DNA of 14,871 nucleotides from Pseudomonadota bacterium (GTDB taxonomy: Bacteria > Pseudomonadota > Alphaproteobacteria > Micropepsales > Micropepsaceae). A program made the translations under genes and the position numbers. The notes below the pieces were generated by a model. The model saw only the letters and a program-made list of their open reading frames with translations, searched no databases and was not told where the DNA came from. The stretch spans positions 1 through 14,871 of the forward strand of contig JAKBAU010000052.1 of assembly GCA_021808875.1 (NCBI GenBank), read 5' to 3'. The number at the start of each line of letters is the position of its first letter. The first letter of the stretch is position 1. Below are positions 238 to 14,871 of this stretch, piece by piece.

Positions 238-981
238 TCAGATGATCCCGCCATTGGCGCGCAGGATCTGACCATTGATCCAGCCGCCATCGGGACCGGC
301 GAGGAAGGCGACTGCATTGGCGATATCTTCCGGACGGCCCAGCCGCTCCAGCGGGGCAAGTCTGGTCAGCTTGTCGACGACCGCCTGCGGCTTGCCATCG
401 AGGAATAATTCGGTCGTGGTGGGACCGGGGGCGATCGCATTGACTGTGATGTTGCGGCCGCGCAGTTCCTTGGCGAGCACGCGCGTCATGGCCTCCACGC
501 CAGCTTTGGTGGCCGCATAGACGCCGTAGGTGGGCTGGTAGAGCCCAACCACGCTGGACGAGATATTGATAATCCGCCCACCCGCGCGCAGCCTTGTGGC
601 GGCCAGCTTCATCGTGTTGCGCGGCCCCTTCAGGTTGATCGCGACCTGGCTGTCGAACAGCTCGTCGTCTCCCTCGGACAGAGGGGCCAGCCTCATGATA
701 CCGGCATTGTTGACGAGCACATCGATTTCACCGAACGCCCTCTCCGCCGCGTCCCACATGCGGGCGACCGCCTGCGGCTCGCTGACATCGGCCTGCACGG
801 GCAGCGCGCGTCCGCCGGCCGTCTCAATGTTTTCTGCGAGCGTCTCCGCCTCGGCGCCAGTGCTGGAAAAGTTGATGACAACCGTGAAGCCGTCCCCGGC
901 AAGCCTTGTGGCAATGGCCGCTCCGATGCCGCGTGACGCGCCCGTGACGAGGGCAACTCTGGATTCCATCCGGTTTGTCAT
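238..981 (-). CDS. SDR family NAD(P)-dependent oxidoreductase
   Basis: Classical short-chain dehydrogenase/reductase of 247 aa, the usual family length. Visible motifs: the dinucleotide-binding TGASRGIG at residues 13-20, the structural NNAG at 91-94, the catalytic set Asn116, Ser142, Tyr155 and Lys159 (Y-x-x-x-K), and the PGP motif shortly after. It ends GWINGQILRANGGII, as FabG-like members do. It should reduce a carbonyl or oxidise an alcohol with NAD(P)H in the cytosol; the substrate cannot be read from sequence. An AAGGAG ribosome binding site lies 7 bases before the ATG at 981. The gene is divergent from a LysR regulator 119 bases away, which probably controls it. Confidence 0.93.
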   Translation of the reverse strand: MTNRMESRVALVTGASRGIGAAIATRLAGDGFTVVINFSSTGAEAETLAENIETAGGRALPVQADVSEPQAVARMWDAAERAFGEIDVLVNNAGIMRLAPLSEGDDELFDSQVAINLKGPRNTMKLAATRLRAGGRIINISSSVVGLYQPTYGVYAATKAGVEAMTRVLAKELRGRNITVNAIAPGPTTTELFLDGKPQAVVDKLTRLAPLERLGRPEDIANAVAFLAGPDGGWINGQILRANGGII

Positions 982-1100
982 TGCATGGCTCCTTCCCAGT
1001 GATGTGACCTGTGGCCTGGCGAATGTGCGCGCTAGCCAATCGAAGATAATCAGCGTAGTTTCGTCAATATTGTTCCATTTTTAGAAATAATGTTGCACCC
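982..1100. promoter_or_regulatory. Divergent intergenic region between SDR and LysR genes
   Basis: These 119 bases separate two divergent genes and must hold both promoters. The half next to the regulator is AT-rich (about 1045-1095) against a GC-rich background, with near-repeats AATATTGTT and AATAATGTT flanking a run of T. That is where a LysR protein would be expected to bind, though I see no clean T-N11-A dyad I would insist on. Confidence 0.4.
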
Positions 1101-1991
1101 ATGGATCGGCTCGACGCCATGCGATTGTTCATCAGGGTGGTAAGCCGACGCAGCTTCACCGCCGCCGCGCAAGATCTGAACGTGCCGCGCTCCACGGCGA
1201 CCAGCGCCATCAAAGCCATGGAAGACCGGCTCGGCGTGCGGCTTCTTCAGCGCACCACGCGGACCGTGCGGCCGACACTTGACGGCGAGGTTTGGTATCG
1301 TCGCTGTCTCGCGATTCTGGATGATGTCGAGGATGCCGAGGGCACTTTCGGCGGAACCGAACCCAGGGGAATGTTGCGCGTCGAGGTGCAGGGGACCATC
1401 GCGCGCCATTTCCTGATGCCGGGTCTCCCCGATTTTTTTGCGCGCTATCCGATGATCGAGCTGTCTATGAGCGAGGGCGACCGTTGGGTCGACCTTGTCC
1501 ATGAAGGCGTCGACTGTTCGCTGCGTTACGGCGCGCTACCCGATAGTGACCTCGCTGCCCGGCAGCTGGCGATGCTGGAACGCGTTACCTGCGCCGCACC
1601 GGCATATATCGACCGGTTCGGCGCACCCGAGCGACTCGAGGATTTGGCGAACCACCGTTTGGTCGGCATACGACGGCTGAGCAGCGGTACATTGACGCCC
1701 GTCACGTTTCAGGTCGGCGGTATGTTGCGCCAGATCGACATGGTCGCGCCCTTTTCCGTCACCGGACCGGAGAGCTACCTGATGGGTGTCCAGCTCGGCC
1801 TGGGCCTCGCGCAGTTACCCCGCTTCCACGTCGAGGCTGCCCTCGCCAGCGGCACGCTCGTCGAACTGCTGAAGGATACGCCTCCGCCGCCTGAGCCGGT
1901 TTCCCTGCTCTACCCTCGCAGCCGCCAGCTCAGCCCGCGGGTGCGCACCTTCATCGACTGGGCAGCCGCGCAATTCGCCCATCGACGCTGA
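1101..1991 (+). CDS. LysR family transcriptional regulator (divergent from SDR)
   Basis: 296 aa, the family's usual length. Residues 1-60 form the winged helix-turn-helix: MDRLDAMRLFIRVV leads into SFTAAAQDLNVPRSTATSAI and ends at LGVRLLQRTTR. The remaining residues (about 90-290) are the type-2 periplasmic-binding-like effector domain. The N-terminus resembles the large group of regulators that sit beside SDRs and quinone or aldehyde reductases. LysR proteins usually activate a divergent neighbour in response to a small effector, so the SDR at 238-981 is the likely target and the effector may be its substrate (inference). No strong ribosome binding site is seen before the ATG; the start is supported by the canonical LysR N-terminus. 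It converges with the next LysR gene. Confidence 0.92.
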   Translation: MDRLDAMRLFIRVVSRRSFTAAAQDLNVPRSTATSAIKAMEDRLGVRLLQRTTRTVRPTLDGEVWYRRCLAILDDVEDAEGTFGGTEPRGMLRVEVQGTIARHFLMPGLPDFFARYPMIELSMSEGDRWVDLVHEGVDCSLRYGALPDSDLAARQLAMLERVTCAAPAYIDRFGAPERLEDLANHRLVGIRRLSSGTLTPVTFQVGGMLRQIDMVAPFSVTGPESYLMGVQLGLGLAQLPRFHVEAALASGTLVELLKDTPPPPEPVSLLYPRSRQLSPRVRTFIDWAAAQFAHRR

Positions 1992-1996
1992 ACGGC

Positions 1997-2031
1997 GGCG
2001 CCGGCAAGACCCGATGGGATCACCCGGCGCC
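1997..2031. terminator. GC-rich hairpin between convergent LysR genes
   Basis: GGCGCCGG at 1997-2004 pairs perfectly with CCGGCGCC at 2024-2031 around a 19-base loop, 6 bases after the first LysR stop. There is no T-run on either side, so it is not a classical intrinsic terminator, but its place between two converging genes fits a bidirectional transcription barrier. Confidence 0.4.
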
Positions 2032-2067
2032 AGCGTTGATTTCATCACGATCACACATGCATGGTAT

Positions 2068-2967
2068 CTATTTCGTACCCAGTTGCTCCACGAGCATATC
2101 AATGAACAGACGCACCTTTGCGGACATCCGGTGCCGGTGCGGATAGAGCACCTCAAGGCGCAACTGCCTGGGAACGTAACGCTCCATGACCGGGACGAGT
2201 GTTCCGTGCGCAAGATCCTGATCAACAAGAAAGTTCGGCGCCATGATGATCCCGACGCCGCCGATGGCCGCGGCGCGCATCAACATCCCCCCATTGGTCA
2301 GCAGGTTTCCGCGGATCCGGACGGTTGCCTCACCCTTGGGACCATCGAATATCCATTCGTCGCCGAATGGATAGGCCGCATGACAGAGACAATTATGCCG
2401 CGCCAGGTCTGCCGGGATTCGCGGCGTTCCATTCTGCGCGAGGTAGCCCGGGGATGCGCAGAGGACGTGCCGATAGCCCGACAGATGGCGAACGATAAAG
2501 CGTGAATCGGGAAAGGGCACCATGCCTATGATGAGGTCGAGCCCTTCACTTATCGGATCGACGACCAGATCATTGACCATCTGTGCTTCGATCTGCATCT
2601 GCGGGTAGCGCGCAAGATAGCTGGTGACCACCGGTGCAAGAAGCGAGCCGAGGACGTGAACGGCGGCAAAGCGTAGCCGCCCGGTCGGCATTGTTTGCAG
2701 CGCTGCCGCGGTCTGGTCGGCCTCCTCGATCGCAGAGAGGATGCGGCTGCACTGTTCGTAGTATGTCTGACCGATTTCGGTTAGGCTGACTCGGCGCGTC
2801 GTGCGATTCAGCAAGCGGACGCCCAGCCGTTCCTCAAGTTCCTGGATATGGTTGCTCGCCATCGCCGGCGACATGCCGAGGCGCCTCGCCGCGGCAGCAA
2901 AACCTCCGGCTTCTGCGATTTTAGCAAAGACCGTAAGGCTTGTCAGACGATCCAAACGCACCTCCAT
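2068..2967 (-). CDS. LysR family transcriptional regulator (divergent from emrAB)
   Basis: 299 aa from the ATG at 2967. The frame stays open to a GTG at 3033, but the canonical LysR start MEVRLDRLTSLTVFAKIAEA argues for 2967. The DNA-binding helix-turn-helix (residues about 5-62) includes GFAAAARRLGMSPAMASNHI and ends with LGVRLLNRTTRRVSLTE, typical of the AaeR/CrgA-like subgroup. The rest is the LysR effector domain, including a DLIIGMVPFPDS segment. It is divergent from the emrA-emrB operon, 117 bases away, and is the obvious candidate to regulate it, probably sensing an aromatic or other toxic compound that the pump exports. That role is inferred from position. Confidence 0.9.
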   Translation of the reverse strand: MEVRLDRLTSLTVFAKIAEAGGFAAAARRLGMSPAMASNHIQELEERLGVRLLNRTTRRVSLTEIGQTYYEQCSRILSAIEEADQTAAALQTMPTGRLRFAAVHVLGSLLAPVVTSYLARYPQMQIEAQMVNDLVVDPISEGLDLIIGMVPFPDSRFIVRHLSGYRHVLCASPGYLAQNGTPRIPADLARHNCLCHAAYPFGDEWIFDGPKGEATVRIRGNLLTNGGMLMRAAAIGGVGIIMAPNFLVDQDLAHGTLVPVMERYVPRQLRLEVLYPHRHRMSAKVRLFIDMLVEQLGTK

Positions 2968-2983
2968 TATCAAGCAAAACTGA

Positions 2984-3011
2984 ATAATCTCGCAAAAAAA
3001 TAGCTGATTAT
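2984..3011. promoter_or_regulatory. Inverted repeat in LysR/emrA divergent promoter region
   Basis: ATAATC at 2984-2989 and GATTAT at 3006-3011 are perfect inverted copies, separated by 16 mostly A-rich bases. They lie in the 117-base gap between the divergent LysR and emrA starts, where a LysR dimer would be expected to bind. Each arm is only 6 bp in an AT-rich patch, so this is a candidate operator only. Confidence 0.35.
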
Positions 3012-3084
3012 CGTCGTCATTGCCACGCTGCACAGTTCAGACCGCGAGGCGGCCGGTTCGGGTCGCCAAAAGGAGGTGGGGGTC

Positions 3085-4209
3085 ATGACTGGCAAGAAAA
3101 TACTCAGGAAAGCAGCGCTCTTGACCACGGTGGCGGCCGGATTGGTCGGCGGTGCGTATTACGCGGTTGGTTGGTGGCAGCATGGCCGCTTCGATGTAAG
3201 CACCGATGATGCCTACCTTCAGGCCGATTCGACGATCATCGCGCCGAAGGTGTCAGGCTATGTAGCGAAGGTTCTGGTCACGGATAACCAGCACGTCGCC
3301 GCGGGCGAAGTTCTGGCGCGCATCGATCCGAGAGATCTTCAGGACGCGTTCGCGGAAGCCAAGGCCGAGGTGGCCGTCGGACGGCAAGGGATTGCCAATC
3401 TCGTGGCACAGATTGCCTTGCAGCACAGCGTCGTGGCACAGGCCGCGGCAGAAGAGACCGCCGCGCGAGCGGCTCTAACATATGCTCTCGAGAATTCTGG
3501 CCGATACGCAGTGCTGGCTCGCAGCGGTGCCGGTACTATACAAAGCGAGCAGCGTGCGGCGGCGGCGCTCATAGAAGCCAAGGCGGCACTTCGACACGAC
3601 CGGGCGATGACACTGGCGGCGACGCAGAAGATAGCCGTCCTGGAAACGGCGCGGGCCCAGGCGGCGGCGCACCTGGATCATGCGCAGGCCGCGGCGCGGC
3701 AGGCCGCACTCAATCTCTCCTATACGACGATCACCGCGCCGATCGCCGGGACCGTGGGCAATCGCTCGCTGCGCGTCGGCCAGTATGTTCGAGCCGGCAC
3801 CCAGCTCATGGCTCTCGTGCCGCTCCGGCACGTGTATGTCACGGCCAATTTCAAGGAAACGCAACTCACCCGCGCACGACCAGGCCAGACCGTTGACGTC
3901 GCAGTCGACATGTTCCCGGACACGGTCCTGCACGGGCGGGTCGTGAGTTTGGCACCGGCTACCGGCCTCGAATTTGCGCTTCTGCCGCCCGACAATGCGA
4001 CCGGAAACTTCACCAAGATCGTCCAGCGAATACCCGTAAAGATCGAACTTGATGCCGGCACCAGGCTGCTCGGCCGATTGCGTCCAGGCATGTCGGTAGA
4101 GGCAACGATCGACACGGAATCCCGCCCTGCCACCGCAGCCGCACGAATGGCAACGTCTTTTCCGCCGGCCACGCGGCCCGCCGTTTCGACGCAAGGGAGG
4201 GGAAGATGA
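3085..4209 (+). CDS. emrA: HlyD/EmrA-type membrane fusion protein of a multidrug efflux pump
   Basis: 374 aa from the ATG at 3085, chosen because AGGAGG at 3071-3076 lies 8 bases before it; an upstream in-frame GTG at 3076 overlaps that ribosome binding site. The N-terminus has one membrane segment (about residues 9-30). Next comes DVSTDDAYLQADSTIIAPKV and SGYV, the EmrA-type first half of the lipoyl domain, then a long Ala/Gln/Glu-rich coiled-coil hairpin (about 85-205). The second lipoyl half (TTITAPIAGTVGNR, about 214-227) and a beta-barrel region with NFKETQL follow. The protein would span the periplasm and link the inner-membrane transporter encoded next to an outer-membrane channel, which is not in this window. 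Its stop overlaps the emrB start (ATGA), showing translational coupling. Confidence 0.92.
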   Translation: MTGKKILRKAALLTTVAAGLVGGAYYAVGWWQHGRFDVSTDDAYLQADSTIIAPKVSGYVAKVLVTDNQHVAAGEVLARIDPRDLQDAFAEAKAEVAVGRQGIANLVAQIALQHSVVAQAAAEETAARAALTYALENSGRYAVLARSGAGTIQSEQRAAAALIEAKAALRHDRAMTLAATQKIAVLETARAQAAAHLDHAQAAARQAALNLSYTTITAPIAGTVGNRSLRVGQYVRAGTQLMALVPLRHVYVTANFKETQLTRARPGQTVDVAVDMFPDTVLHGRVVSLAPATGLEFALLPPDNATGNFTKIVQRIPVKIELDAGTRLLGRLRPGMSVEATIDTESRPATAAARMATSFPPATRPAVSTQGRGR

Positions 4210-5873
4210 GCACAGTCACGGCAGGAACGCCCAACACAACCCAAACTCCGCTCGCCCCGGCAGCGGCCGATGCGGTGCCGATGCGCACCTGGCTTGCCGT
4301 TCTCGCTGCGACGCTTGGAGCCTTCATGGCCGTGTTGAACATCCAGATCACCAATGCCGCCCTTCCTGATATCCAGGGCGCGATCGGCACGGGGCTCGAC
4401 AATGGCGGATGGATCTCTACCGCCTACCTGATCGCCGAAATCATCGTTATTCCACTCACCGGTTGGCTTGCCCGCGTGTTCTCCGTACGCCGCTATCTGC
4501 TGACGAATGCCGCTCTGTTTCTCGTCTTCTCAATGTCGTGCGCGAGTGCCCATGACCTTCCTCAGATGATCGTATTGCGGGCGTTTCAGGGCTTCACCGG
4601 CGGGGTTCTGATCCCGCTTGCCTTCACCATCATCATGACCATGCTGCCGAAATCGAAGCAGCCGATCGGGCTCGCGCTTTTCGCCCTTTCGGCAACGTTC
4701 GCGCCAGCGATCGGCCCAACCATCGGCGGCTGGCTGAACGAGAACTACGGTTGGCAATACATTTTTTACGTCAATCTCGTGCCCGGCATCGTCATGCTCG
4801 GCATGCTCGTGGCGTCCCTAGATCCAGCGCCGATGAACCTCTCATTGCTGCGGCAGGGCGACTGGCCGGGCATCGCCACGATGGCGATTGGTCTCGGAGC
4901 ACTGGAAACCGTGCTGGAGGATGGCAACAAGGATGGCTGGTTTGGGTCGCCCTTTATCCTGCATCTCTCTCTCACCGCCGCGGTCGCACTTGCCACTTTC
5001 CTCGCGATCGAACTCACCGTCCGTCGGCCACTTCTCAATCTCCGTCTCTTGCTCGGGCGCAACTTCGGCTTCGGCACACTCGCGAACTTCTTGCTTGGCA
5101 CGGCGCTCTACGGGTCAGTCTTCATCCTGCCGCTCTATCTGTCGCAGACCCAAGGCTACAATGCGGAGCAAGTGGGCGAGGTCCTCGCCTGGACGGGGCT
5201 GCCGCAACTTGTGCTCATTCCGCTCGTACCGAAGCTGATGAGCAAATTCGATACGCGCTTGCTGACAATTGTGGGATTCGCGCTGTTTGCCGGTAGCTCG
5301 CTCATGACCATCCATCTAGATGCCAATTTTGCCGGCCCCCAATTCCTTCTGCCGAATATCGTGCGCGCCATTGGCCAGGCGTTGATCATGACACCACTCT
5401 CCATACTCGCCACGGCGGACATTGAGGTCGAGGACGCCGGTAGCGCCTCTGCCCTATTCAACATGTCACGCAATCTCGGCGGCGCACTTGGTATCGCGGT
5501 GCTGCAGACCGCTTTCACATGGCGGGAACAATACCACTCAAATATCCTCAGTAGCGCCGTGTCCCTCGCGAGCAGTGGGACCCAGCAAACGATCGTGGGA
5601 TTAACGCAATATTTTCTAAGCCATGGAACCAGCGATCCGGCAGCCGCGCACCACGATGCGATCATCGCGATTGGCCGCTTCGTCCGGCAGCAAGCCGAGA
5701 TCATGGGATACAGCGACACATTCTTTCTGCTCGGCGTGGCTTTGGTCCTTGCCCTGGCCGCTTCGCTTTTTTTGCACAAGCCGGCGCGGCCACGGGAGGC
5801 GGCGCGCACTAAACTAGAAGCCAATCGGTCGGACATCAATCTGAAAGTATCAGTCGATCCGACGGCTCAATGA
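4206..5873 (+). CDS. emrB: DHA2 family MFS drug:H+ antiporter (EmrB-type)
   Basis: 555 aa, within the normal range for 14-helix DHA2 transporters. Hydrophobic segments run the full length; the first starts near residue 24 (MRTWLAVLAATLGAFMAVLN). Antiporter motif C is seen as GPTIGGW at residues 170-176, followed by GWQYIFYVNLVPG. A late conserved segment, SALFNMSRNLGGALGIAVL, is typical of EmrB. GGAGGGGAAG directly precedes the ATG, and the start overlaps the emrA stop by 4 bases. With EmrA it should export hydrophobic toxins or drugs across both membranes using the proton gradient. The specific substrate is unknown. The usual acidic residue in the first helix (L-D-x-x-I-V-N) reads L-N-I-Q-I-T-N here, which may affect coupling or specificity. 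Confidence 0.93.
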   Translation: MSTVTAGTPNTTQTPLAPAAADAVPMRTWLAVLAATLGAFMAVLNIQITNAALPDIQGAIGTGLDNGGWISTAYLIAEIIVIPLTGWLARVFSVRRYLLTNAALFLVFSMSCASAHDLPQMIVLRAFQGFTGGVLIPLAFTIIMTMLPKSKQPIGLALFALSATFAPAIGPTIGGWLNENYGWQYIFYVNLVPGIVMLGMLVASLDPAPMNLSLLRQGDWPGIATMAIGLGALETVLEDGNKDGWFGSPFILHLSLTAAVALATFLAIELTVRRPLLNLRLLLGRNFGFGTLANFLLGTALYGSVFILPLYLSQTQGYNAEQVGEVLAWTGLPQLVLIPLVPKLMSKFDTRLLTIVGFALFAGSSLMTIHLDANFAGPQFLLPNIVRAIGQALIMTPLSILATADIEVEDAGSASALFNMSRNLGGALGIAVLQTAFTWREQYHSNILSSAVSLASSGTQQTIVGLTQYFLSHGTSDPAAAHHDAIIAIGRFVRQQAEIMGYSDTFFLLGVALVLALAASLFLHKPARPREAARTKLEANRSDINLKVSVDPTAQ

Positions 5874-5967
5874 TGCCGCCGGAATGCCGGATGGGGGAAT
5901 TAACCCCCCGACACCCTGCGGAACCTGTCCCGATGCCTCCTCATCAATCCTTTTTCCGGAGTTGTAA

Positions 5968-6552
5968 ATGCACGCTAAAATTCTCGCCTTTTCAGGTAGT
6001 TCCCGACTCGGGTCTGTTAACCAACGTGTTCTCGACATTGCAGCGAAAGGGGCAATGGCGGCCGGCGCCAGTATCACAGCGCTACGCCTCAGCGACCTCG
6101 ACCTGCCGATCTATGATGGCGATATGGAAACCGGCGGTCTGCCCCCGGGCGCGTGTCGGCTCAAAGAGATGATCGCTGCGCATGACGCGCTGCTTATCGC
6201 GTCCCCGGATTACAATGGCGGGTATACACCGCTTCTGAAGAACGCTCTCGACTGGGCTAGCCGTCCCGGCACAACGCTGGGTCCAAACGTATTCTCAGGC
6301 AAGTTGGCGGCCGTGGTATCGGCATCGCCAGGCTTGCTAGGCGGGATAAGATCCCAAGTCTCGCTGTTGCCCGTGCTACACAAGCTTGGCATGCACGTTG
6401 TCCCGGCATCTTTCGCGCTCGGCCTCGCCTTCCAGATGTTCGATCAGGACGGCGCAATCACGGACAGCACCGCACATGACGCCCTTGGCAGTGTCGGGGC
6501 GGCACTTGTCAAGGCGATAGCGCGCTTTACCAAACGGGTCGAAGACAAGTGA
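5968..6552 (+). CDS. NADPH-dependent FMN reductase-like flavoprotein
   Basis: 194 aa with the flavodoxin-like fold of the NADPH-dependent FMN reductase family (ChrR/YieF/ArsH-like). The FMN phosphate loop GSSRLGSVNQ starts at residue 10. SPDYNGGYTPLLKNALDW starts at residue 79 and is the second signature, contacting the isoalloxazine ring and forming the dimer face. These enzymes reduce quinones, azo dyes, chromate or free flavin with NAD(P)H and are often linked to oxidative or xenobiotic stress. A CCGGAG ribosome binding site precedes the ATG by about 10 bases. It follows emrB by 94 bases on the same strand with no strong terminator between, so it may be co-transcribed with the pump as part of one detoxification unit (inference). 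Confidence 0.88.
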   Translation: MHAKILAFSGSSRLGSVNQRVLDIAAKGAMAAGASITALRLSDLDLPIYDGDMETGGLPPGACRLKEMIAAHDALLIASPDYNGGYTPLLKNALDWASRPGTTLGPNVFSGKLAAVVSASPGLLGGIRSQVSLLPVLHKLGMHVVPASFALGLAFQMFDQDGAITDSTAHDALGSVGAALVKAIARFTKRVEDK

Positions 6553-6643
6553 CGGTAGTCGGGCTGTCGATTCTGTATATAGCATCAGCATTATGGGAAG
6601 CAACGCTGAAGACGAAGTGGTCTGAGCCCCAAGTTCCCGCCAT

Positions 6644-7060
6644 TCAGGAGTAGAGTCTCATCCCCGAGTGATGCCCACGATTGTGCGTAGGTGCAACAGC
6701 CGGGTTGGGGGTTAACCCCCAACCCGGCGCGCCGCTGATTTTTCCCGCCACCTCTGCCAGGGTTTTGTTGCCCGGGCGCGAATGGGGGCGGTGATGATTA
6801 TAGTCGTGACGCCAGGCGGCCAGCACGGACCTCGCTTGAGGCAGGCTCGTGAACAAGGTCTCGTTCAGACGCTCGTCCCGGAGCCGGGCGTTGAAGCTCT
6901 AGGCGAACCCGTTTTGCTGGGGCTTGCCGGGCGCGATGTAATGCCATTCCACGTTCCGCTCTTTCGACCAGCGCAGGATCGACATGCTGGTAAGCTCAGT
7001 GCAGTTGTCGCTGACCACCATGAGCGGGCGCGCCCCGCGCTCAGTGATCGCCATATTCGG
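6644..7060 (-). pseudogene. IS3-family transposase (OrfB) C-terminal remnant
   Basis: On the minus strand one frame reads AITERGARPLMVVSDN, CTELTSMSILRWSKERNVEW, HYIAPGKPQQNGFA, then a TAG stop (6899-6901), then SFNARLRDERLNETLF and TSLPQARSVLAAWRHDYN, ending GMRLYS at the 6644 stop. This is the integrase core of an IS3-family OrfB: VSDN carries the second Asp of DDE, and the usual N-G-F-V-E-S-F-N block has lost V-E to A-stop, so the final catalytic Glu is gone. The N-terminal half is missing: homology stops near 7060, where an unrelated repeat sequence begins. The gene is dead by both truncation and nonsense mutation. Confidence 0.85.
6699..6728. repeat. Perfect 30-bp palindrome
   Basis: The 30 bases read identically on both strands: arm GCCGGGTTGGGGGTT at 6699-6713 followed directly by its exact reverse complement at 6714-6728, with no loop. 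It falls inside the C-terminal codons of the dead IS3 transposase, in the segment PGWGLTPNPA. It could extrude as a hairpin or act as a transcription barrier. It may be native to this IS type or a later change. Confidence 0.9.
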
Positions 7061-7107: not shown

Positions 7108-7497
7108 ATCGCCGACGCTCTGATCGTCACACGAGCGATTTATAATTATTTGGCTGCGGCTTGATGCGACCATGACGCGAATATTGCGGGCCCATGTTCC
7201 TCTAGAGGATGCAGACCGATTAGCCGACCAACCACCGCGAACTGTCTTATCAACACGAGTCCGGAGGCAGAAAGTACACCTCAAAAAATCGCCTTTGATC
7301 AGTCAGTTGGCGACTATAGCTGAAAAGCCGTCGATCTTTGACAGCCGTACTCGGATGGAAAGGAACCGTGCCGCCTCGAACCAGCGTCGTCGTCAGACAT
7401 TCAAAAATTGCAGATCAGCCATTCACCCCTGAGCCGCAGGCGACGAACGAAATTCTGGTTTCGGCGACGAAAATTCCGTCGTCTGTATTCGCCCGCG
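7108..7497. other. Gap with no supportable gene
   Basis: About 390 bases between the insertion-sequence relics and the first gene of the recombinase module. Several short open frames cross it on both strands, but none shows a family motif, a convincing ribosome binding site or consistent codon use. Near the right end, 7465-7481 is a near-palindrome (CGACGAAAATTCCGTCG, 14 of 17 symmetric), about 17 bases before the next start codon and a possible operator for the downstream helix-turn-helix protein. Confidence 0.5.
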
Positions 7498-7755
7498 ATG
7501 AAGACCATGAGAGACAAGCGCGGGCTTACCGGAACGGAGGCGGGAGAAGATCCCGTCGCCGCGCTCCGGCGCGAAGCGGGCGACCATCCCGCCTTCGCCG
7601 ACGAAGCCGCCTGGCGGTTTGAGCCGGCGGTCATGGCGACGGGCCTAGCCATGCAGGAGCTCGCCCGAATGCTCGGACGGATTGCCGCGCGGAAGGTTGA
7701 ACGGTCGGCATCGCCTTCTCAAACCGAACCGGAAGGTGCACGATCCGATGATTGA
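7498..7755 (+). CDS. Small hypothetical protein ahead of excisionase-like gene
   Basis: 85 aa from the ATG at 7498; a second ATG at 7507 is also possible. I recognise no family. The protein is Ala/Arg/Glu-rich and probably helical, with a core around DPVAALRREAGDHPAFADEA and WRFEPAVMATGLAMQELARM, and a charged, probably disordered tail. Its stop overlaps the next start by 8 bases, which suggests translational coupling to the helix-turn-helix gene and is the main reason to accept it as real. It has no membrane segment or signal peptide. It may help the DNA-binding protein or the recombinases, but this rests on position alone. Confidence 0.5.
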   Translation: MKTMRDKRGLTGTEAGEDPVAALRREAGDHPAFADEAAWRFEPAVMATGLAMQELARMLGRIAARKVERSASPSQTEPEGARSDD

Positions 7756-8038
7756 AAATTCTACTTTCCCTCGCCCTGGAAGCGGCGGCCGCTTGCTCAC
7801 GCGTAAACAAGCATCTCATTTTCTGCGCTGTTCCGAGAGGACTATCAGTCGCCTCGTTGAGAAAGGTGAATTGCCGTGCCTACACGTCGGCCGCCAGATG
7901 CGGTTCGATATCGCTGATGTGCGCAATGCGCTCCGGCGCAAGATGTCTCCGCACAGCCAGGGCGCCCCAAGCAACATCAACCCCGATTTAGACGCCTTTA
8001 ATATGCAAAGTGAAAAATCTTTGGATTCCGCGCCTTAG
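7748..8038 (+). CDS. Excisionase-family helix-turn-helix DNA-binding protein
   Basis: 96 aa from the ATG at 7748, which has GGAAGG at 7731-7736 upstream and overlaps the preceding stop. Residues about 15-65 are a MerR-like helix-turn-helix of the excisionase (HTH_17) type: LLTRKQASHFLRCSERTISR, then a basic wing VEKGELPCLHVGRQMRFDIA and DVRNAL. Members either bend DNA to steer integrase reactions or regulate small mobile elements. Lying just upstream of two tyrosine recombinases on the same strand, it is a good candidate for their recombination directionality factor or regulator (inference). The C-terminal 30 residues are low-complexity and not recognised. Confidence 0.8.
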   Translation: MIENSTFPRPGSGGRLLTRKQASHFLRCSERTISRLVEKGELPCLHVGRQMRFDIADVRNALRRKMSPHSQGAPSNINPDLDAFNMQSEKSLDSAP

Positions 8039-8101
8039 TATTCTTGCGTGAAAAGCATTGCATCCATTTGGCCTGAAAATGGACTATACGATGTTCACGA
8101 A

Positions 8102-8133
8102 TGTCACTACCTGTCGTCTACTGTCACAATAGG
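8102..8133. repeat. Helically phased TGTC repeats, with left copy of the flanking inverted block
   Basis: TGTC occurs at 8102, 8112 and 8122, exactly 10 bases apart, so all three face the same side of the helix. The last one is part of ACTGTCACAATAGG (8120-8133), which recurs inverted at 11818-11831 with 12 of 14 bases the same. The site lies immediately before the likely start of the first recombinase and may be an operator or a recombinase-binding site. Confidence 0.4.
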
Positions 8134-8140
8134 ACTAAAA

Positions 8141-10168
8141 ATGCTCAAAAAGAAGCCTTATAGTCAATTGGATTTCTTCGCCGCACTGGCCCCAGGCGTA
8201 GCGGCTACGCATATTGTTGAGGCTGCGCCTGTCACTGCAGCAGCCCATGAGACCGTCGGGTCGGATCCGGCCGCACCTGGGGGTCAGTCGGTTATCCCCC
8301 CGCTCGATGCTGGGGACGAGGACACGGGACGGGCCGACGCCGCGCGCGACCAGGAGCTCTCCAAATGGACCAGCGGCGAAGGTATCTCGGCCGTCGAGGT
8401 TTTGTGCCAGATGTCGCGGTGGGAAGACCTCTCCACGAGTCAGCACCGCGACATGTCGAGCGCCGTGCGCACGGCGGTACGCGTCTCAGGTCTGTCGATG
8501 GCGGCGCTGATGATGACGGCGCCCTCGGTCCGGGCGCACGTCGTATCCAAACCGCTGCCCGACTGGGGCGATCGCAAGCGGCGCCGCGCCAACGTGTTGT
8601 CCCTCCTGCGGCGGGTGCTCGAGCGCCTCGATGTCATCGATAAGGAAAGCATTCCGATCGCCGATGAGTGGGACCTCCTACGCGAGAGGCTCGACCAGCG
8701 CGGACGTATGAGCCTAGCGGCCTTCATGCGGTTCGCAACGTTCCATGAGATCGCTCCGGCCACGGTCCGTGCCGACACGCTCGAAATGTTCCGCGGATGG
8801 CTCCATGAGCGTACGATCATCGACAAGCCCGACAAGCTGGTTAACGCCGCCCGGCGCGCTTGGAACCAGGCCGCACAGACGATCGAGACGTGGCCGCGCA
8901 CCAATCTGGCACTGAAGCCGCGGCGCAAGCTGAGAACGCCCTTCAGTGCCTATCTCGCTTCCTTCCGCGAGGACTTGGACCGAATGAGGGAACGCCTGTC
9001 CGGCGCTGATGCCGAAGCCCTGTTCGGCTTCGACCAGGCGGACGACGAGGCTGCTTCCGGCCCGCTCCCGATCACGAAGGCGCTGAGACGGGCAACCATC
9101 GACACTCGCCTTCAACACATCCGCACCGCAGCGGATGCGCTGCATCGGTCCGGCATTCCGCTCGAACAGATCTCCTCGCTCCGGACCCTGGTCGAGCCCT
9201 ATCGGCACGCCCGCCAGATCATTGAGCTCCTTTGGAACGAAAATGGCCGGAAGAAGTCACCGACCATCAGCCACGTCGCCGAAACTCTCCGGCAGATTGG
9301 CAAATTTCATACCCCAGTGTCCGAAGGCGATCTCGCTCGGCTGACGGACCTCGCGAAAAAATCTGCCGTCCGGTACCGGTCGATGACGCACAAAAACCGG
9401 ACTCTGCTCGAACAGCTGAACAGTCCGGAACGACTTCTGCGCCTCCTCGAGCTTCCGAGGGTACTTTTCGACGATGCGTCTCGCGAGACAAGTCCCCGGC
9501 GTGCCGCCGCCCTGGCGTTACGCGGCCTCGTGATCGCGCTTCTCCTCCGGTGCCCGATGCGGCTCGCAAACCTGCTCCTCCTCGAGATCGAGGCTCACCT
9601 GGTGCGGCCGGATCCTGCATCCAGGCGAGTAGCCGCCATCATTATTCCGGCCAACCTGACAAAAAATCGAGAACCGCTTTGCTACCCGGTGCCCGAGGAC
9701 CTGGCCGAGTTTCTGGATCTCTGGATCAGCCACTACCGCGATGGTGTCGCGGCCCCGGGTTCGCCGTTCCTGATTCCAGGTCTGGAGGACAGGCCGATGA
9801 CGCGACAGGGAATCCGCGACGCGGTCAAGTCGGTCACGCGCGAGCGCGTCGGCGTCGCGATCCACCCGCACGCGTTCCGACATCTCGCCGCGTATCTCTA
9901 CTTGCGGGCCCGTCCGGGATCATACGAGGGCGCGCGCCAGTTGCTTGGCCACCGTGACCTCCGCACGACAACCCGCGCGTATCTCGGCTTCGAGGCCGAC
10001 GCGGCTTTCCGCGACTTCGACCAGATTCTCAACGCAGAGATCGAGACGCTCGACACCGCGAGAGCCGGCAGCCGTCGCCGACGCGCCCGCAAACCCAAAA
10101 TGCACTCCCTCCTGAAACGCGGCCCCAAGCCTCAGCCTCTCTCAAAAATCCTGAAAGGCTCGACTTGA
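8141..10168 (+). CDS. Large tyrosine-type site-specific recombinase (integrase)
   Basis: 675 aa from the ATG at 8141 (MLKKKPYSQLDFFAALAP), preceded by AGGAC. The frame is open back to a GTG at 8048, but that extension would run through the phased repeats. The C-terminal third is a full tyrosine recombinase catalytic domain: Arg474 (CPMRLAN), a TKNREP hairpin with the likely Lys, His577-x-x-Arg580 (HPHAFRH), His604 (LLGHRDL) and nucleophile Tyr614 (TTTRAYLG). The N-terminal ~440 residues are much longer than in phage integrases and are helical, probably DNA-binding; the C-terminus is a basic tail. It probably acts with the second recombinase encoded 3 bases downstream, cutting and joining DNA at the ends of the element. 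Confidence 0.88.
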   Translation: MLKKKPYSQLDFFAALAPGVAATHIVEAAPVTAAAHETVGSDPAAPGGQSVIPPLDAGDEDTGRADAARDQELSKWTSGEGISAVEVLCQMSRWEDLSTSQHRDMSSAVRTAVRVSGLSMAALMMTAPSVRAHVVSKPLPDWGDRKRRRANVLSLLRRVLERLDVIDKESIPIADEWDLLRERLDQRGRMSLAAFMRFATFHEIAPATVRADTLEMFRGWLHERTIIDKPDKLVNAARRAWNQAAQTIETWPRTNLALKPRRKLRTPFSAYLASFREDLDRMRERLSGADAEALFGFDQADDEAASGPLPITKALRRATIDTRLQHIRTAADALHRSGIPLEQISSLRTLVEPYRHARQIIELLWNENGRKKSPTISHVAETLRQIGKFHTPVSEGDLARLTDLAKKSAVRYRSMTHKNRTLLEQLNSPERLLRLLELPRVLFDDASRETSPRRAAALALRGLVIALLLRCPMRLANLLLLEIEAHLVRPDPASRRVAAIIIPANLTKNREPLCYPVPEDLAEFLDLWISHYRDGVAAPGSPFLIPGLEDRPMTRQGIRDAVKSVTRERVGVAIHPHAFRHLAAYLYLRARPGSYEGARQLLGHRDLRTTTRAYLGFEADAAFRDFDQILNAEIETLDTARAGSRRRRARKPKMHSLLKRGPKPQPLSKILKGST

Positions 10169-10171
10169 CCC

Positions 10172-11236
10172 ATGAATGAAAGCAATGACTGGATCCCGAG
10201 CTGTACCAAATTTGCCGACTGGCCTCAGATCGACCGCACCCTCTGGGCTGCAGGCTGCATCGCCGAAACCCCATTCGACGTTGGCGGCCACGGTGCCACG
10301 ATGCGGCCGGACAGCCTGAGAAAGGTCCAGAAGGGCTATGGGGTATGGCTGTCCTTCCTCGCGGCCAGGGGCGAACTCGACCCGACCCTGTCGCCGGCGG
10401 AGCGGCTGACCCGGGCACGAGCCAGCGCCTATTTCCAGGCTCTCAAGAACCTTGGTCGGTCCGGACATACGATCCTGGGTCGGTTCGGCGAACTCCGCCT
10501 CGCCATGAAGATCATGGCGCCCGATGCCGACACGGCCTGGCTTCTACGGCCGCGCGACGTATCGCTCCGATCGATCATCCGCCCGCACTCGCGCTCCGTG
10601 GTTGTGCCGGATTCGGCGGTCGCGTTCCGGTGGGGGCTCGACCTGATGGAGAAGGCCCGTTCGGCCCCGCCGTCATCGCGGCAACACTCCCGGTACCGTG
10701 ACGGGCTGATGATCGCGCTGTTCGCTGCCCGCGCCCGCCGGTTGCGCTCTATGGCCCTGATCCGCGTCGGCAAAGAGCTCCGGTTCTGTGATGGCCGCTT
10801 CTATGTCGAACTGACCGAAGATCAGGTGAAGACGGGCAAGCCCGACAGGTTCTCCGTACCCGATTCCCTGACGGCGGCGATGCATCACTACCTTGACGTA
10901 GTCCGCCCTGCCCTGCTCGGCGAATCGGAGGACGACGCGCTCTGGATAAGCGCCATCGGAACCAGGTTATCCGAGAGAGCGATTCAGACCATGTTGGCTC
11001 GCCGCTCGAAACGCCGCTTCGGCGTCGCGTTCTCGGCGCACCGGTTCCGGCACATGGTAGCGACCACGCTACCGCTGCGCCGTCCCGACCGTCCGGGCCT
11101 GGGTGCCGCGGTTCTAGGGGTGTCCAAGCAAGTCGTCGAGCAGCACTATTACCGTGCCGGACAGATTCTTGCTGCAATGAATTACGAAAAAATCCTTGCC
11201 GTATATACGAACGACTGGAAAACGCGCCGAAGATAG
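10172..11236 (+). CDS. Second tyrosine-type recombinase lacking box-II histidine
   Basis: 354 aa, typical integrase length. Recognisable catalytic parts are an Arg cluster at 187-192 (RARRLR, with Arg190 aligning to the box-I Arg), a VKTGKP segment for the Lys, His290-x-x-Arg293 (SAHRFRHM) and Tyr327 in QHYYRAG. The box-II LGH reads LGV here: Val317 sits 10 residues before Tyr327, the same spacing as His604 to Tyr614 in the first recombinase. The enzyme may still work, because this position tolerates substitution in some family members, or it may serve mainly as a structural partner. It starts 3 bases after the first recombinase's stop, so the two are surely one transcript. Confidence 0.85.
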   Translation: MNESNDWIPSCTKFADWPQIDRTLWAAGCIAETPFDVGGHGATMRPDSLRKVQKGYGVWLSFLAARGELDPTLSPAERLTRARASAYFQALKNLGRSGHTILGRFGELRLAMKIMAPDADTAWLLRPRDVSLRSIIRPHSRSVVVPDSAVAFRWGLDLMEKARSAPPSSRQHSRYRDGLMIALFAARARRLRSMALIRVGKELRFCDGRFYVELTEDQVKTGKPDRFSVPDSLTAAMHHYLDVVRPALLGESEDDALWISAIGTRLSERAIQTMLARRSKRRFGVAFSAHRFRHMVATTLPLRRPDRPGLGAAVLGVSKQVVEQHYYRAGQILAAMNYEKILAVYTNDWKTRRR

Positions 11237-11439
11237 ACCAATATTCCCGATATTTATTGACACGATTATTGATTATTACAAACAGACTGCAAATATAACT
11301 GAGGCAGACCCCATCAATCGACAGCCTCTCCAACCCGCGCGGCGGATCCAGTGCCGCACGGGAGCAATCTTTGTTGTCTGCGGCGACCTTACCGGTCGCG
11401 TAGGAGACCCGGCTGCCGGCTCATCAAGGACAACCGCAT

Positions 11440-11763
11440 ATGTCTGACTATCCCTATGTTCCCGTGCAACTCGACCGCTATATGGCGATCGCCGAGCGCG
11501 GCATGCGCGAACGCTTCCGCCTACGAGCGGCCCGAACATCGGTCGAATACGAATGCGACCTGACGCTCCGGAATATCCAGACCCTTCGCGGCCGATATCG
11601 CGACTTGCTGGCCAGAGAGAATCGGACCGAAGCCGATGATTGGCTCGAGCCGGAGCTCATGGCTCTCGCCGCTCAGGCCGAGTGTATGCTCGAAGTGCTG
11701 AGACACTTCCTGCAGCTGCTCGACGCGCTCGACACACCAGTGTTCAATATCGAACAGTCGTGA
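11440..11763 (+). CDS. Small helical protein at the end of the recombinase operon
   Basis: 107 aa, family not recognised. AAGGA at 11426-11430 lies 9 bases before the ATG. The sequence is rich in Arg, Glu, Leu and Ala with almost no Gly or Pro after residue 10, so it should form long helices, likely a coiled coil, between about LDRYMAIAERGMRERFRLRA and AECMLEVLRHFLQLLDAL. There is no membrane segment. It is separated from the second recombinase by 203 bases, partly AT-rich (11237-11300), and is closed by a strong terminator. By position it could be the small accessory factor of the recombinase pair, as TnpC is for Tn554. That is inference only. Confidence 0.65.
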   Translation: MSDYPYVPVQLDRYMAIAERGMRERFRLRAARTSVEYECDLTLRNIQTLRGRYRDLLARENRTEADDWLEPELMALAAQAECMLEVLRHFLQLLDALDTPVFNIEQS

Positions 11764-11765
11764 CC

Positions 11766-11804
11766 AAGCCCCCTCACCTCTTATCATGGGTGAGGGGGCT
11801 TTTG
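11766..11804 (+). terminator. Strong intrinsic terminator
   Basis: A perfect 13-bp stem pairs 11766-11778 (AAGCCCCCTCACC) with 11789-11801 around a 10-base loop. The 3' arm ends in TTTT. It starts 2 bases after the 107-aa gene stop and should end the recombinase operon. Confidence 0.9.
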
Positions 11805-11852: not shown

Positions 11853-11941
11853 GCGCCTAGCCCGGCCACTGGAGTTCCTCGAGCTGCAGCCCGAAACCTG
11901 ACATTCCCCCTGACGGAAGGCACGATGGGCGAAGTGGCGGT

Positions 11942-11970
11942 TTGCAACCAAAATTAGTCCATGCTATTCA
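11942..11970 (+). promoter_or_regulatory. Candidate promoter for the ATPase/protease pair
   Basis: TTGCAA at 11942-11947 and TATTCA at 11965-11970 are 17 bases apart, about 50 bases before the ATPase start, in an AT-rich patch after the terminator. The hexamers match sigma-70 consensus only partly (4/6 and 3/6). A 7-bp inverted pair, TAGTCCA (11955-11961) and TGGACTA (12011-12017), brackets the -10 and start region. Confidence 0.3.
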
Positions 11971-12018
11971 TTCAAAAAATCAGCTGTTTCTAAGGAATAC
12001 GTGGGGAATTTGGACTAG

Positions 12019-13203
12019 ATGTCTTTTGGAAGCGACGAATTCGTCCAGATTGCGCGTCTTGCGCTGACCGGGCGCCCCCAGGATGCACAGGCGTTCTTGC
12101 GCCGACTGGTTCGTAAGGCGAAGCCAGATGAGCGTCCTCTGGCCGAACTGTTGGGTAACCTCTTGGCTATAGCCCCCACGCAAGCAAGCCCCTTAAGGGA
12201 AGTGGGGGGTGCGATGCTCCCTGTGGATGGGGATACGCGCCTGTCCCTTCTGCGTCAGGAATTTCCTTCCGGCATGGCTGAAGCCCCGATTTTGCCGTCT
12301 GCCCTGCAATCGCGGCTAGATCAGGTCTTGGCTGAGCGCCGCAGTTTGTCAGTTCTGGCACAAAAGGGGTTAGAGCCAACGCGCTCGTTGCTGTTTATCG
12401 GGCCGCCTGGCGTGGGGAAGACCATGACTGCGCGGTGGGTTGCCCAAAGTCTTGGCCTGCCCCTGCTGACCCTTGATCTTTCCGCCGTGATCAGCAGCTA
12501 TCTCGGAAAGACAGGTACCAACCTCCGCAATGTGCTGGATTACGCCAAGAGTCTATCGTGCGTGCTGCTGTTGGATGAGTTCGACGCTGTGGCGAAGCGC
12601 CGAGACGACGATGCCGAGATTGGCGAATTGAAGCGGCTTGTAACGGTCTTGCTGCAAGAAATCGATGATTGGCCAGAAACCAGTTTGCTGGTAGCGGCCA
12701 CCAACCACGAAGAGCTTCTGGACCCGGCGGCATGGCGTAGATTTGATGACGTAATAAAATTTGGTTTACCGTCAAAAGGCCTGCGGGTGGCGTTTCTGGC
12801 GGCCGCATTCGGTGACGATGGAAAGGATGCCTCCACTTGGTTGCCAATCCTTGCCGATGTTTGGGCCGGCCGGTCTTTTAGCGACGCGGAAAAAAGTGTC
12901 CAACGCATCCGAAGGCGTCACATCCTTGGGCAATGCACCCTTGTCGCGGCCATTACCGATGAAATTTGCAAAGACAGCAGAGATTGGGATGCGGAGAAAA
13001 AACGAACTGTCGCGCGAGCGCTCCATCAGGAAGGTATGTCAGACCACAAAATCCACGATCTGACAGGTATTTCTCGCGACACCCTGCGAAAAATGTGGGC
13101 AGCCGAAAAGATAAGTACAGGAGAAGGCAATGACGGAACCCAGGTATCTGATCGGCGGCGGGGAGCAACTAGCCGTGGAGGTTCCTCGGCCAAGGCGCGG
13201 TAG
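12019..13203 (+). CDS. ietA: AAA+ ATPase of an ietAS-type system (antitoxin/regulator component)
   Basis: 394 aa. Residues 1-60 are a helical N-terminal domain. The AAA+ module has Walker A GPPGVGKT at 128-135, a pore-loop-like SSYLGKTG, Walker B with Asp186-Glu187 (LLLDEFD), a sensor-1-like AATNH, and an Arg-finger region DPAAWRRFDD at 235-244. The C-terminus adds a helix-turn-helix around 329-360 (RTVARALHQEGMSDHKIHDL, TGISRDTLRKMW). The next gene, overlapping by 74 bases, is a subtilisin-like protease. AAA+ ATPase followed by S8 protease is the ietA-ietS arrangement from Agrobacterium pTiC58, where the ATPase was reported to counteract the toxic protease; ietAS was later listed among anti-phage systems. 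The assignment rests on architecture and pairing, not on an alignment. Codon use looks less GC-biased than in the recombinases, hinting at separate acquisition. Confidence 0.8.
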   Translation: MSFGSDEFVQIARLALTGRPQDAQAFLRRLVRKAKPDERPLAELLGNLLAIAPTQASPLREVGGAMLPVDGDTRLSLLRQEFPSGMAEAPILPSALQSRLDQVLAERRSLSVLAQKGLEPTRSLLFIGPPGVGKTMTARWVAQSLGLPLLTLDLSAVISSYLGKTGTNLRNVLDYAKSLSCVLLLDEFDAVAKRRDDDAEIGELKRLVTVLLQEIDDWPETSLLVAATNHEELLDPAAWRRFDDVIKFGLPSKGLRVAFLAAAFGDDGKDASTWLPILADVWAGRSFSDAEKSVQRIRRRHILGQCTLVAAITDEICKDSRDWDAEKKRTVARALHQEGMSDHKIHDLTGISRDTLRKMWAAEKISTGEGNDGTQVSDRRRGATSRGGSSAKAR

Positions 13204-14871
13204 CGGCGACAAGGCGCACCCTTATTCATTCTTGGCGGCGCGGGAGCGCCTGACGCTCCAATTCAACAACACCGTTACGCGCCTGCGAGAGTTGCCCGGC
13301 ACTGCATGCCCGGATGGCGATTCGGTCATTAACATGACCCTGCATCCGTCTTACCTTGCCAAAAGCTATTATCCCTCTGGCCTGATCCGAGAGTTGGGAC
13401 TTCGCTCGGTAGGAAGTCGGGCGGTTCATCTCGTTCCAGAAAAAATCACGGGAGCCCAGAGTAAACTCGGTCAGGACATACGTCCGTTTCCGGCGCTCCA
13501 ACTTTTCCTGGCGGGATCACGGGACCGAATTGACGAATGGGCACACGGATTACCGAACTGGTCACCACAAGAGGACGCGCTTCGGGACGAGTTTCGCCGT
13601 ATCGAAAGCGTGGAGCCGCCGCAAGAAGATAGGCTGAAGCCAATACCGGACGAAAGGCGGCAAGCCGAAGTGCCACTAGAAGTCGTATTGCACGCCTCGG
13701 CCAACCAAGAAGACGCTTATGTGCGTCACGGCTTCCAAGAATATGTGCAGTCGTTTGGCTTGCAACTCGACTTGGGACGGGCACGTTTTGCTGGCGGTCT
13801 TTGCTTCTTACCGCTCCGATCCACGATCGAGCTTTTGCCCAAAATTGCAGAATTTTCATTCTTGCGGGCATTGCGGCAAATGCCTCGCGTGGTGCCGCTT
13901 GATCCGCTCATTCGGAGTGCGGTGCCTGGCTTTCCCGTAACGCTTCCCGACCAAGATGCCGCCGCACCAGATTTGAGGGTTGCGATCCTGGATGGCGGCC
14001 TTCCCGACGATCACCCACTTGACCGGTGGGTAACATCGAACGTCGCGCCGGGCGTGGGCGCTCCCATTCCAAATTTCCAACGCCACGGCTTGGCGGTCAC
14101 GTCCGCTTTTCTCTTCGGCCCGCTTCAGCATGGCATGGGTTTGGATCAGCCCTATGCCAATGTGGATCACTGGCGAGTTATAGGGGCGGACACCGCCCAT
14201 GACGATTTCGAACTTTATTCTATTCTTAGCCGAATAGAGGATATTCTCCAGTCCAACGACTACGATTTCGTCAATATTAGCCTCGGTCCCGATATGGCGA
14301 TTGAGGATGATGAAGTGAACTCTTGGACCTCCACGCTGGACTTGCTGCTGGCAGAAGGTGAAACCGTTGCGACCGTGGCTTGCGGCAACAATGGGGAGCA
14401 GGATGCCCATTTGCTGTTGCACCGAATCCAGCCGCCATCCGATGGCGTCAACATGGTTGCGGTCGGCGCGGCTGATCGTCCTGACGGTCCATGGAGGAAA
14501 GCTCCGTATAGTGCTGTTGGCCCTGGCCGTAGTCCCGGATACGTCAAGCCTGACCTTTTGGCTTTCGGCGGTGCCTACAGCACGCCATTTTTGGTCCTGG
14601 AACCGGGTATTTCTCCTTCGGGTAACGGAGATATGGGCACTAGCTTTGCAGCCCCGCTGGCGATGCGGTCCGGCGCGGCGATCAGGGCACAGTTTAGCGA
14701 AAAGTTGTGGGCACCGACAATCAAGGCGCTCATGGTTCACCAAGCCAATAATCCCAACGAACATCCTAGGAAGCGTGGACAAACCGCACGGAGGGATTCC
14801 CACGACGCGGTGAGATGTGATTCGACACTGACTTCTGGGACGGAGGTCAGCGTTGGTTCGTGGATTGATGA
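13130..14871 (+). CDS. ietS: Subtilisin-like (S8) serine protease, IetS-like, partial at 3' end
   Basis: The frame runs from the ATG at 13130 to the window edge without a stop (580 codons visible). The start is supported by AGGAG at 13119-13123, 6 bases upstream, and by the N-terminus MTEPRYLIGGGEQL. Residues 1-270 are a substrate- or partner-recognition region of no clear family. The peptidase domain follows with a complete triad: Asp288 (VAILDGG), His319 (QRHGLAVT) and Ser505 (GTSFAAP), plus the oxyanion-hole Asn420 (ACGNNG). No signal peptide is present, so it acts in the cytosol. Paired with the ATPase encoded upstream, it is presumably the effector that cleaves host or phage proteins when triggered. 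After about residue 545 I recognise no usual S8 landmark. The C-terminus is outside the window. Confidence 0.85.
   Translation, partial: MTEPRYLIGGGEQLAVEVPRPRRGSGDKAHPYSFLAARERLTLQFNNTVTRLRELPGTACPDGDSVINMTLHPSYLAKSYYPSGLIRELGLRSVGSRAVHLVPEKITGAQSKLGQDIRPFPALQLFLAGSRDRIDEWAHGLPNWSPQEDALRDEFRRIESVEPPQEDRLKPIPDERRQAEVPLEVVLHASANQEDAYVRHGFQEYVQSFGLQLDLGRARFAGGLCFLPLRSTIELLPKIAEFSFLRALRQMPRVVPLDPLIRSAVPGFPVTLPDQDAAAPDLRVAILDGGLPDDHPLDRWVTSNVAPGVGAPIPNFQRHGLAVTSAFLFGPLQHGMGLDQPYANVDHWRVIGADTAHDDFELYSILSRIEDILQSNDYDFVNISLGPDMAIEDDEVNSWTSTLDLLLAEGETVATVACGNNGEQDAHLLLHRIQPPSDGVNMVAVGAADRPDGPWRKAPYSAVGPGRSPGYVKPDLLAFGGAYSTPFLVLEPGISPSGNGDMGTSFAAPLAMRSGAAIRAQFSEKLWAPTIKALMVHQANNPNEHPRKRGQTARRDSHDAVRCDSTLTSGTEVSVGSWID

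Follow-up and report, generated by a model that had tools for sequence, protein, structure and literature searches.

A divergent ietAS gene pair with an incomplete protease gene beside a twin tyrosine-recombinase module in a Micropepsaceae contig

The 14,871-nucleotide stretch analysed here, referred to as the window, is positions 1 to 14,871 of contig JAKBAU010000052.1 (assembly GCA_021808875.1) of a Pseudomonadota bacterium of the family Micropepsaceae. Close to its right end it carries two adjoining genes on the same strand, encoding an AAA+ ATPase and, after it, an S8-type protease, and these lie behind a module with two tyrosine recombinases (Table 1). An initial annotation, made from the sequence alone, had proposed an ietAS-type pair in a defence or plasmid-addiction island that moves by paired recombinases. 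Profile searches bore out the family. The ATPase open reading frame (ORF) matches Pfam AAA with 109.7 bits and the PADLOC model IetA PDLC02196 with 285 bits over residues 7-363 of 394, while the protease ORF matches Pfam Peptidase_S8 with 59.8 bits and the PADLOC model IetS PDLC02197 with 95.7 bits over residues 152-547. The NCBIfam equivalogs for IetA and IetS (NF042959 and NF042956) are also the best matches for the two proteins, and among solved structures the best sequence relatives of IetA are Cdc48/p97-type AAA+ proteins. The genes overlap by 74 bases, an overlap that was also found in two relatives, locus L001 of a Magnetospirillum metagenome-assembled genome (MAG) and locus L002 of a Rhodospirillales MAG. 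The IetS residues D288, H319, S505 and the oxyanion residue N420 are all present in the window and are kept in 121, 120, 118 and 121, respectively, of 121 aligned rows (the window's own row counted). Inspection of IetS by eye gave no obvious signal peptide. The overlap and the Asp-His-Ser triad were thus correctly annotated; what had been overlooked is that the protease gene is incomplete.

The ietS reading frame that starts at 13130 stays open to the end of the window. Its homology to full-length relatives (~755 aa) ends at 14770, at codon 547, in protein as well as in DNA. The best relative, P0121 (742 aa), shares 93% identity over 532 residues and shows no meaningful match beyond these. Five further relatives end at 14752-14773, save P0130, which matches poorly on to 14821, and the DNA alignment with L001 likewise ends at 14770. 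About 210 conserved C-terminal residues are gone from the window copy: 117 of the 120 listed IetS homologues run on for at least 150 residues past the break point (median 212), and 26 columns that are invariant in a 47-row IetS alignment fall beyond it. The window holds no full-length IetS with its C-terminal region; this copy is broken and the system incomplete. The working defence or addiction island of the initial annotation is not supported, because ietS stops at codon 547.

The last 101 bases (14771-14871) gave no match beyond chance to ietS relatives in any frame. In a search of plasmid sequences this tail matched two plasmids of one Mesorhizobium strain over 27 of 30 bases (E 0.5); a second match of 23 bases was found elsewhere (E 6). 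Over 77 nt the two Mesorhizobium stretches align with the tail, and directly behind this they enter a reading frame (ALVRGLMSDAEWAFFEPFV...), which we take to be the start of an IS5-type transposase. An exact 24-base pattern from the tail had no match in viral contigs, and 15 bases of this pattern had none in 88 loci. The contig thus appears to run a short way into an insertion sequence (IS) and to stop there, and ietS was probably inactivated by it; we infer both the identity of the IS and the loss of function.

Table 1 Features of the ietAS pair and of the recombinase module in the window
Feature	Position	Strand	Details
Excisionase-type helix-turn-helix protein, 118 aa	7682..8038	+	TIGR01764 38.7 bits, cut-off 28.8
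Long tyrosine recombinase, 706 aa	8048..10168	+	Match to the catalytic domain, 494-646
Short tyrosine recombinase, 354 aa	10172..11236	+	Profile match
107-aa ORF after recombinases	11440..11763	+	Position like tnpC/ginD
Terminator-like hairpin between recombinase module and ietAS, after 107-aa ORF	11777..11797	+	
Upstream DNA common to L001; left edge of ietAS homology block	11925..12018	+	
ietA-type AAA+ ATPase, 394 aa	12019..13203	+	Walker A motif GPPGVGKT (residue 128) and Walker B motif LLLDEFDA (residue 183)
ietS-type S8 protease, N-terminal 547 codons only	13130..14770	+	D288 (codon start 13991), H319 (14084), S505 (14642)
Putative left end of IS5-type insertion sequence, not ietS	14771..14871	+	Runs to window end

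In the sgiAT system of SGI1 an IetS-type protease toxin is neutralised by its AAA+ partner, and the same is cited for ietAS of pTiC58 (PMC5006074). In Pseudomonas aeruginosa, Pf-phage-borne ietAS was tied to phage resistance statistically, no lysogen with that phage having been made, and its mechanism is stated as unknown in that study (PMC11878078). The window pair agrees with IetAS of pTiC58 and SgiAT of SGI1 in belonging to both families by profile and in having the ATPase gene before the protease gene. In contrast to these it would be a divergent branch, with an IetS that lacks the C-terminal residues mentioned above, the likeness being one of profiles and descriptions. It is an ordinary member of its known family. 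On plasmids, IetS matches at E<=1e-20 occur in 24 records, and every one of these has a listed IetA match within ~1.5 kb as well, one of the pairs spanning the start of its record.

The surroundings of the closest relatives point to a mobile cassette. The DNA common to the window and L001 runs from 11925 to 14770 with 88% identity, and outside it this closest named relative shares no DNA with the window; with L002 the common DNA runs from 12011 to 14755 with 67% identity. The L002 cassette lies in a prophage-like region, behind genes for a methyltransferase, a phage primase and subunits of a terminase; in L001 a weak lysozyme-like match precedes the cassette, and an integrase follows at a distance of ~3 kb. 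While ietAS is homologous in all three, and IetS of L001 is intact at 757 aa, the flanks examined in L001 and L002 hold no twin recombinases. Remoter IetA relatives were found in 21 viral-contig loci and 10 phage records, and an IetA-like match at E<=1e-30 in 235 plasmid records, of which 127 were typed conjugative. The GC content is ~0.64 in the recombinase genes compared to ~0.57 in the cassette. Because the two closest DNA-level relatives sit in other contexts, the ietAS cassette is, judging by sequence comparison, horizontally mobile and not found at one fixed chromosomal site. The same cassette is thus found in very different surroundings, once in a Magnetospirillum MAG and once on a contig whose insertion sequences are Acidiphilium-like. 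Since the sharing with L001 is limited to 11925-14770 and L002 is prophage-like, the cassette appears to move without the recombinases. Of the mobile cargo or neighbour that had been annotated, the horizontal mobility therefore stands, but movement by the paired recombinases is not supported. The recombinases, the helix-turn-helix protein and the 107-aa ORF were found in 0 of 80 ietA loci from genome contigs within the flanks examined (the flanks are short for several of these loci, and with 34-50% identity the majority are only distantly related), IetA or IetS in the fetched flanks of 0 of 29 module loci, and the ietAS homology block starts ~160 bases past the 107-aa ORF.

The twin recombinases themselves are present as annotated. 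They lie 3 bases apart, both match Phage_integrase, and all four ORFs of the module run in the same direction. The 107-aa ORF has no Pfam match, and its alignment with the small ORFs of two Roseomonas modules is limited to 16 residues (E 0.018). Terminator-like sites in the region number 11, compared to a mean of 8.0 (sd 3.1) in shuffled sequences. Tn554-related couples are described as an abnormally long (611-828 aa) and a ~350-aa recombinase side by side with a small third gene (PMC3414803). The 706-aa and 354-aa recombinases fit this description, the small ORF stands in the corresponding place, and by analogy the module resembles such couples. The GInts (Tn6571 family) likewise have a multi-integrase operon with a small last gene and cargo behind it; they need, however, three integrases and ginD, whereas the window has two Phage_integrase proteins among the ORFs profiled at 7400-11763. 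As a candidate GInt the module was rejected, as it fails the three-integrase definition (PMC5385486).

Relatives of the long recombinase were found in 19 plasmid records; a sample of 385 genomes of the class contained 20 with such a relative, and none was found in viral contigs. The ten best genome relatives all have a short partner (10/10), and in 7 of these 10 loci a large serine recombinase follows directly behind the short one (L136, L139, L140, L142, L143 and L144, in genomes G382, G048, G196, G240, G378 and G062, and a locus in G289; the modules of G196 and G289 are nearly identical). No naming of this trio of two tyrosine recombinases and a serine recombinase was found in a literature search that left subscription papers largely outside it.

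We favour, with a probability of roughly three in four, a horizontally acquired IetAS cassette that lies beside a Tn554-like module on accessory DNA and was later inactivated on the protease side by an IS5-type insertion. Several observations weigh against this. The NCBIfam equivalog scores are under the cut-off, with 241 against 510 for IetA and 76.7 against 900 for IetS, the latter being lowered because ietS is shortened; since the scores are so far under these cut-offs, the pair is, as judged by profiles, a divergent branch of the IetAS kind. The IetA profile is unspecific when used alone, with matches in 14 of 14 control genomes, and for this reason the assignment leans on the score and on the S8 partner; long (640-790 aa) AAA+ frames of the control genomes score 119-128 bits at most against this profile. 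The IS5 match is weak (E 0.5) and both plasmids come from one strain, while the putative IS is visible for only 101 bases at the contig end, where an assembly join is possible. The catalytic domain of IetS is complete, and the shortened protease might still act. Finally, the low GC content sets in within the 11-12 kb stretch, ahead of the cassette. It was also considered that the two genes encode unrelated AAA+ and subtilase housekeeping proteins, as both superfamilies are large and the scores fall below the NCBIfam cut-offs. This is hardly credible, since the top PADLOC matches are IetA and IetS and the pair is kept with its overlap in L001 and L002; the unrelated ATPase and protease families that the initial annotation had named as the alternative did not emerge. 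The break in ietS might instead be an artefact of an assembly that ran into a repeat, the true gene being intact. Indeed, the contig ends 101 bases past the junction and starts inside IS110-like sequence, as it would when assembly stops in repeats. However, the junction is sharp, the tail is IS-like in the right orientation, and an independent IS interruption of ietS with ietA intact occurs in L163, which makes an artefact improbable.

The latter locus (L163:2854-7479, Enterobacter hormaechei) has an intact ietA and an ietS split by ISEc52, an IS3-type element; this broken ietAS is flanked by cpxP and fieF, and a gene for phage replication lies close by. In the window, too, it is the toxin gene that is broken while the antitoxin gene is intact, which is the direction expected by toxin-antitoxin logic. 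These are two cases only, and no rule can be drawn from them yet.

The relation between the module and ietAS may also be read in other ways. It is possible, at somewhat less than even odds, that the module belongs to a plasmid backbone, serving resolution or maintenance, and that ietAS is a plasmid-borne addiction pair merely nearby. ParA is annotated in the fetched flank of 9 of 17 annotated plasmid records with the module (two further records have no usable annotation), on plasmid 3 of R. gilardii an ietAS pair lies close to repA, some 20-27 kb away from the module of that plasmid, and the 235 plasmid records with an IetA-like match, many of them conjugative, point in the same direction. However, the Roseomonas records are not independent of each other, four Rhodobacterales records have no short-recombinase match, module relatives also occur on contigs of 1.6-5.5 Mb, and the window shows no recognisable rep or par gene. 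Alternatively, ietAS could be true cargo of an island whose movement depends on the two tyrosine recombinases, in the manner of GInts. Such a status is plausible, though unproven, and on balance we hold it to be unlikely. In its favour, ietA starts 255 bases past the 107-aa ORF, GInt cargo beginning at the ginD stop codon (PMC5385486), and defence systems are among the cargo of GInts in E. coli (PMC10121019). In addition, module relatives lie near BREX (L136, L138), CBASS (L145), ZorD (L146) and Hachiman (L082) genes, in the scored set 4 of 12 loci compared to 0 of 12 arbitrary regions. On the other hand, no element ends were recognised, the repeats found being short and imperfect and the right end lying outside the window, ietAS and the module were never paired elsewhere in the flanks examined (0/80 and 0/29), the terminator-like hairpin and the homology limit at 11925 separate the two, there are two recombinases instead of three, and one of the four defence-associated loci, L146, has no short-recombinase match.

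Under the favoured reading of an acquired and later inactivated cassette, an IetAS cassette (~2.8 kb visible) would have landed just downstream of the Tn554-like long/short recombinase module, both lying on accessory, probably plasmid, DNA, and an IS5-type insertion would later have inactivated the ietS side. In intact relatives the pair is most likely a toxin-antitoxin or abortive-infection switch, in which IetA, through its AAA+ ring, may restrain or license IetS, a subtilase-fold protease. IetS would then be set free when a phage infects the cell or when the element is lost, with harm to the cell or to the phage. In the window copy this function would be lost, leaving ietA as an antitoxin without its toxin.

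An AlphaFold model was made of the full-length IetS of L001 (757 aa), an intact relative of the window protein (pLDDT 83, pTM 0.86). In this model a long N-terminal part precedes the subtilase core (~280-545), and the C-terminal part that follows is rich in beta structure. A fold search with this model gave pro-Tk-SP and KP-43 as the best matches in the PDB, which confirms the subtilase, with a TM-score over the query of at most ~0.4. The break in ietS follows helix 528-538 of the model, between core and tail. Because the break parts core from tail, the model suggests that the IetS stump could fold, yet without a strongly conserved region.

In some other genomes, members of the recombinase family have defence genes in their vicinity. 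The PADLOC scan covered 12 module loci, with 80 of their 135 predicted ORFs (recombinases and small ORFs dropped), and 6 more ORFs taken from four plasmid loci besides these, which makes 86. The control consisted of 112 of 171 predicted ORFs from 12 hand-picked arbitrary regions in six of the same genomes; two control regions lie on the module's own contig, and three plasmids of the module set have no control. The comparison covers the 25 leading families of the 74 (module) and 53 (control) matched. Among these, strong BREX, CBASS or Zorya matches occur at 4 of 12 module loci and in 0 of 12 arbitrary regions: the BREX genes PglX, PglZ and BrxL at L136, BrxA and BrxB only at L138, a CBASS cyclase and its 4TM effector at L145, and ZorD only at L146. 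The ZorD model also matches in 8 of 14 control genomes, and L146, having no short-recombinase match, would drop out of a count of strict pairs. A DNA methyltransferase was the strongest match in the control regions, which also gave CARF/deaminase, cyclase-like and mad3/mad8 matches. The defence counts are small, and because the control regions were arbitrary and not integrase-matched, the difference could come from a tendency of defence genes to gather around integrases of any kind. Outside the count of 4 in 12, ten hand-picked ORFs were scanned. They yielded complete Hachiman genes at L082:7894-11700 (HamA 673 bits, HamB 788 bits) and a PDC-S19 match at L150; of the rest, six had no match and one more had a weak caspase match only. 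The Hachiman genes lie between the twin recombinases and parA on plasmid p546-6 of Roseomonas haemaphysalidis. On the Azospirillum oryzae plasmid (W01, NZ_CP054621.1), the ZorD gene close to the module (910720-913470) contains one in-frame TAG. It may be speculated, as a doubtful extension that we rate slightly below the cargo reading, that the long/short pairs with a serine recombinase form an undescribed alphaproteobacterial mobile-element family that carries BREX, CBASS, Zorya, Hachiman and, here, ietAS with an IS-silenced toxin and an intact antitoxin. The surroundings of this module family merit a proper census of defence systems.

A 29-nt inverted repeat, 83% complementary, was noted at 7028-7056 and 11480-11508 and may be due to chance; one arm (7028-7056) ends exactly at the limit of Acidiphilium homology, and the other lies within the 107-aa ORF. 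The start of the window is IS110-like (1-172, 93.6% identity to an Acidiphilium plasmid), and sequence close to Acidiphilium is confined to IS-like pieces, namely the first 226 bases and 6617-7056 (97%, plasmid DNA). The latter piece holds a perfect 30-base palindrome at 6699-6728, and its reverse strand presumably encodes the end of an IS3-type integrase, judging by eye from a motif. An Acetobacteraceae host near Acidiphilium would be a tentative reading of the contig; the best matches of its EmrB-type MFS gene, at ~70% identity, pointed to no closer host genome. Rfam and tRNA scans of the window were empty. An SDR/LysR pair near Roseomonas plasmid modules was tried as shared synteny and dropped, since the window proteins had no match there at 1e-4. 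In the window the stretch 238-6552 appears by eye to hold unrelated accessory genes, encoding an SDR oxidoreductase, two LysR-type regulators, an EmrA/EmrB-type efflux pair and an FMN-reductase-like protein whose NCBIfam matches are below cut-off.

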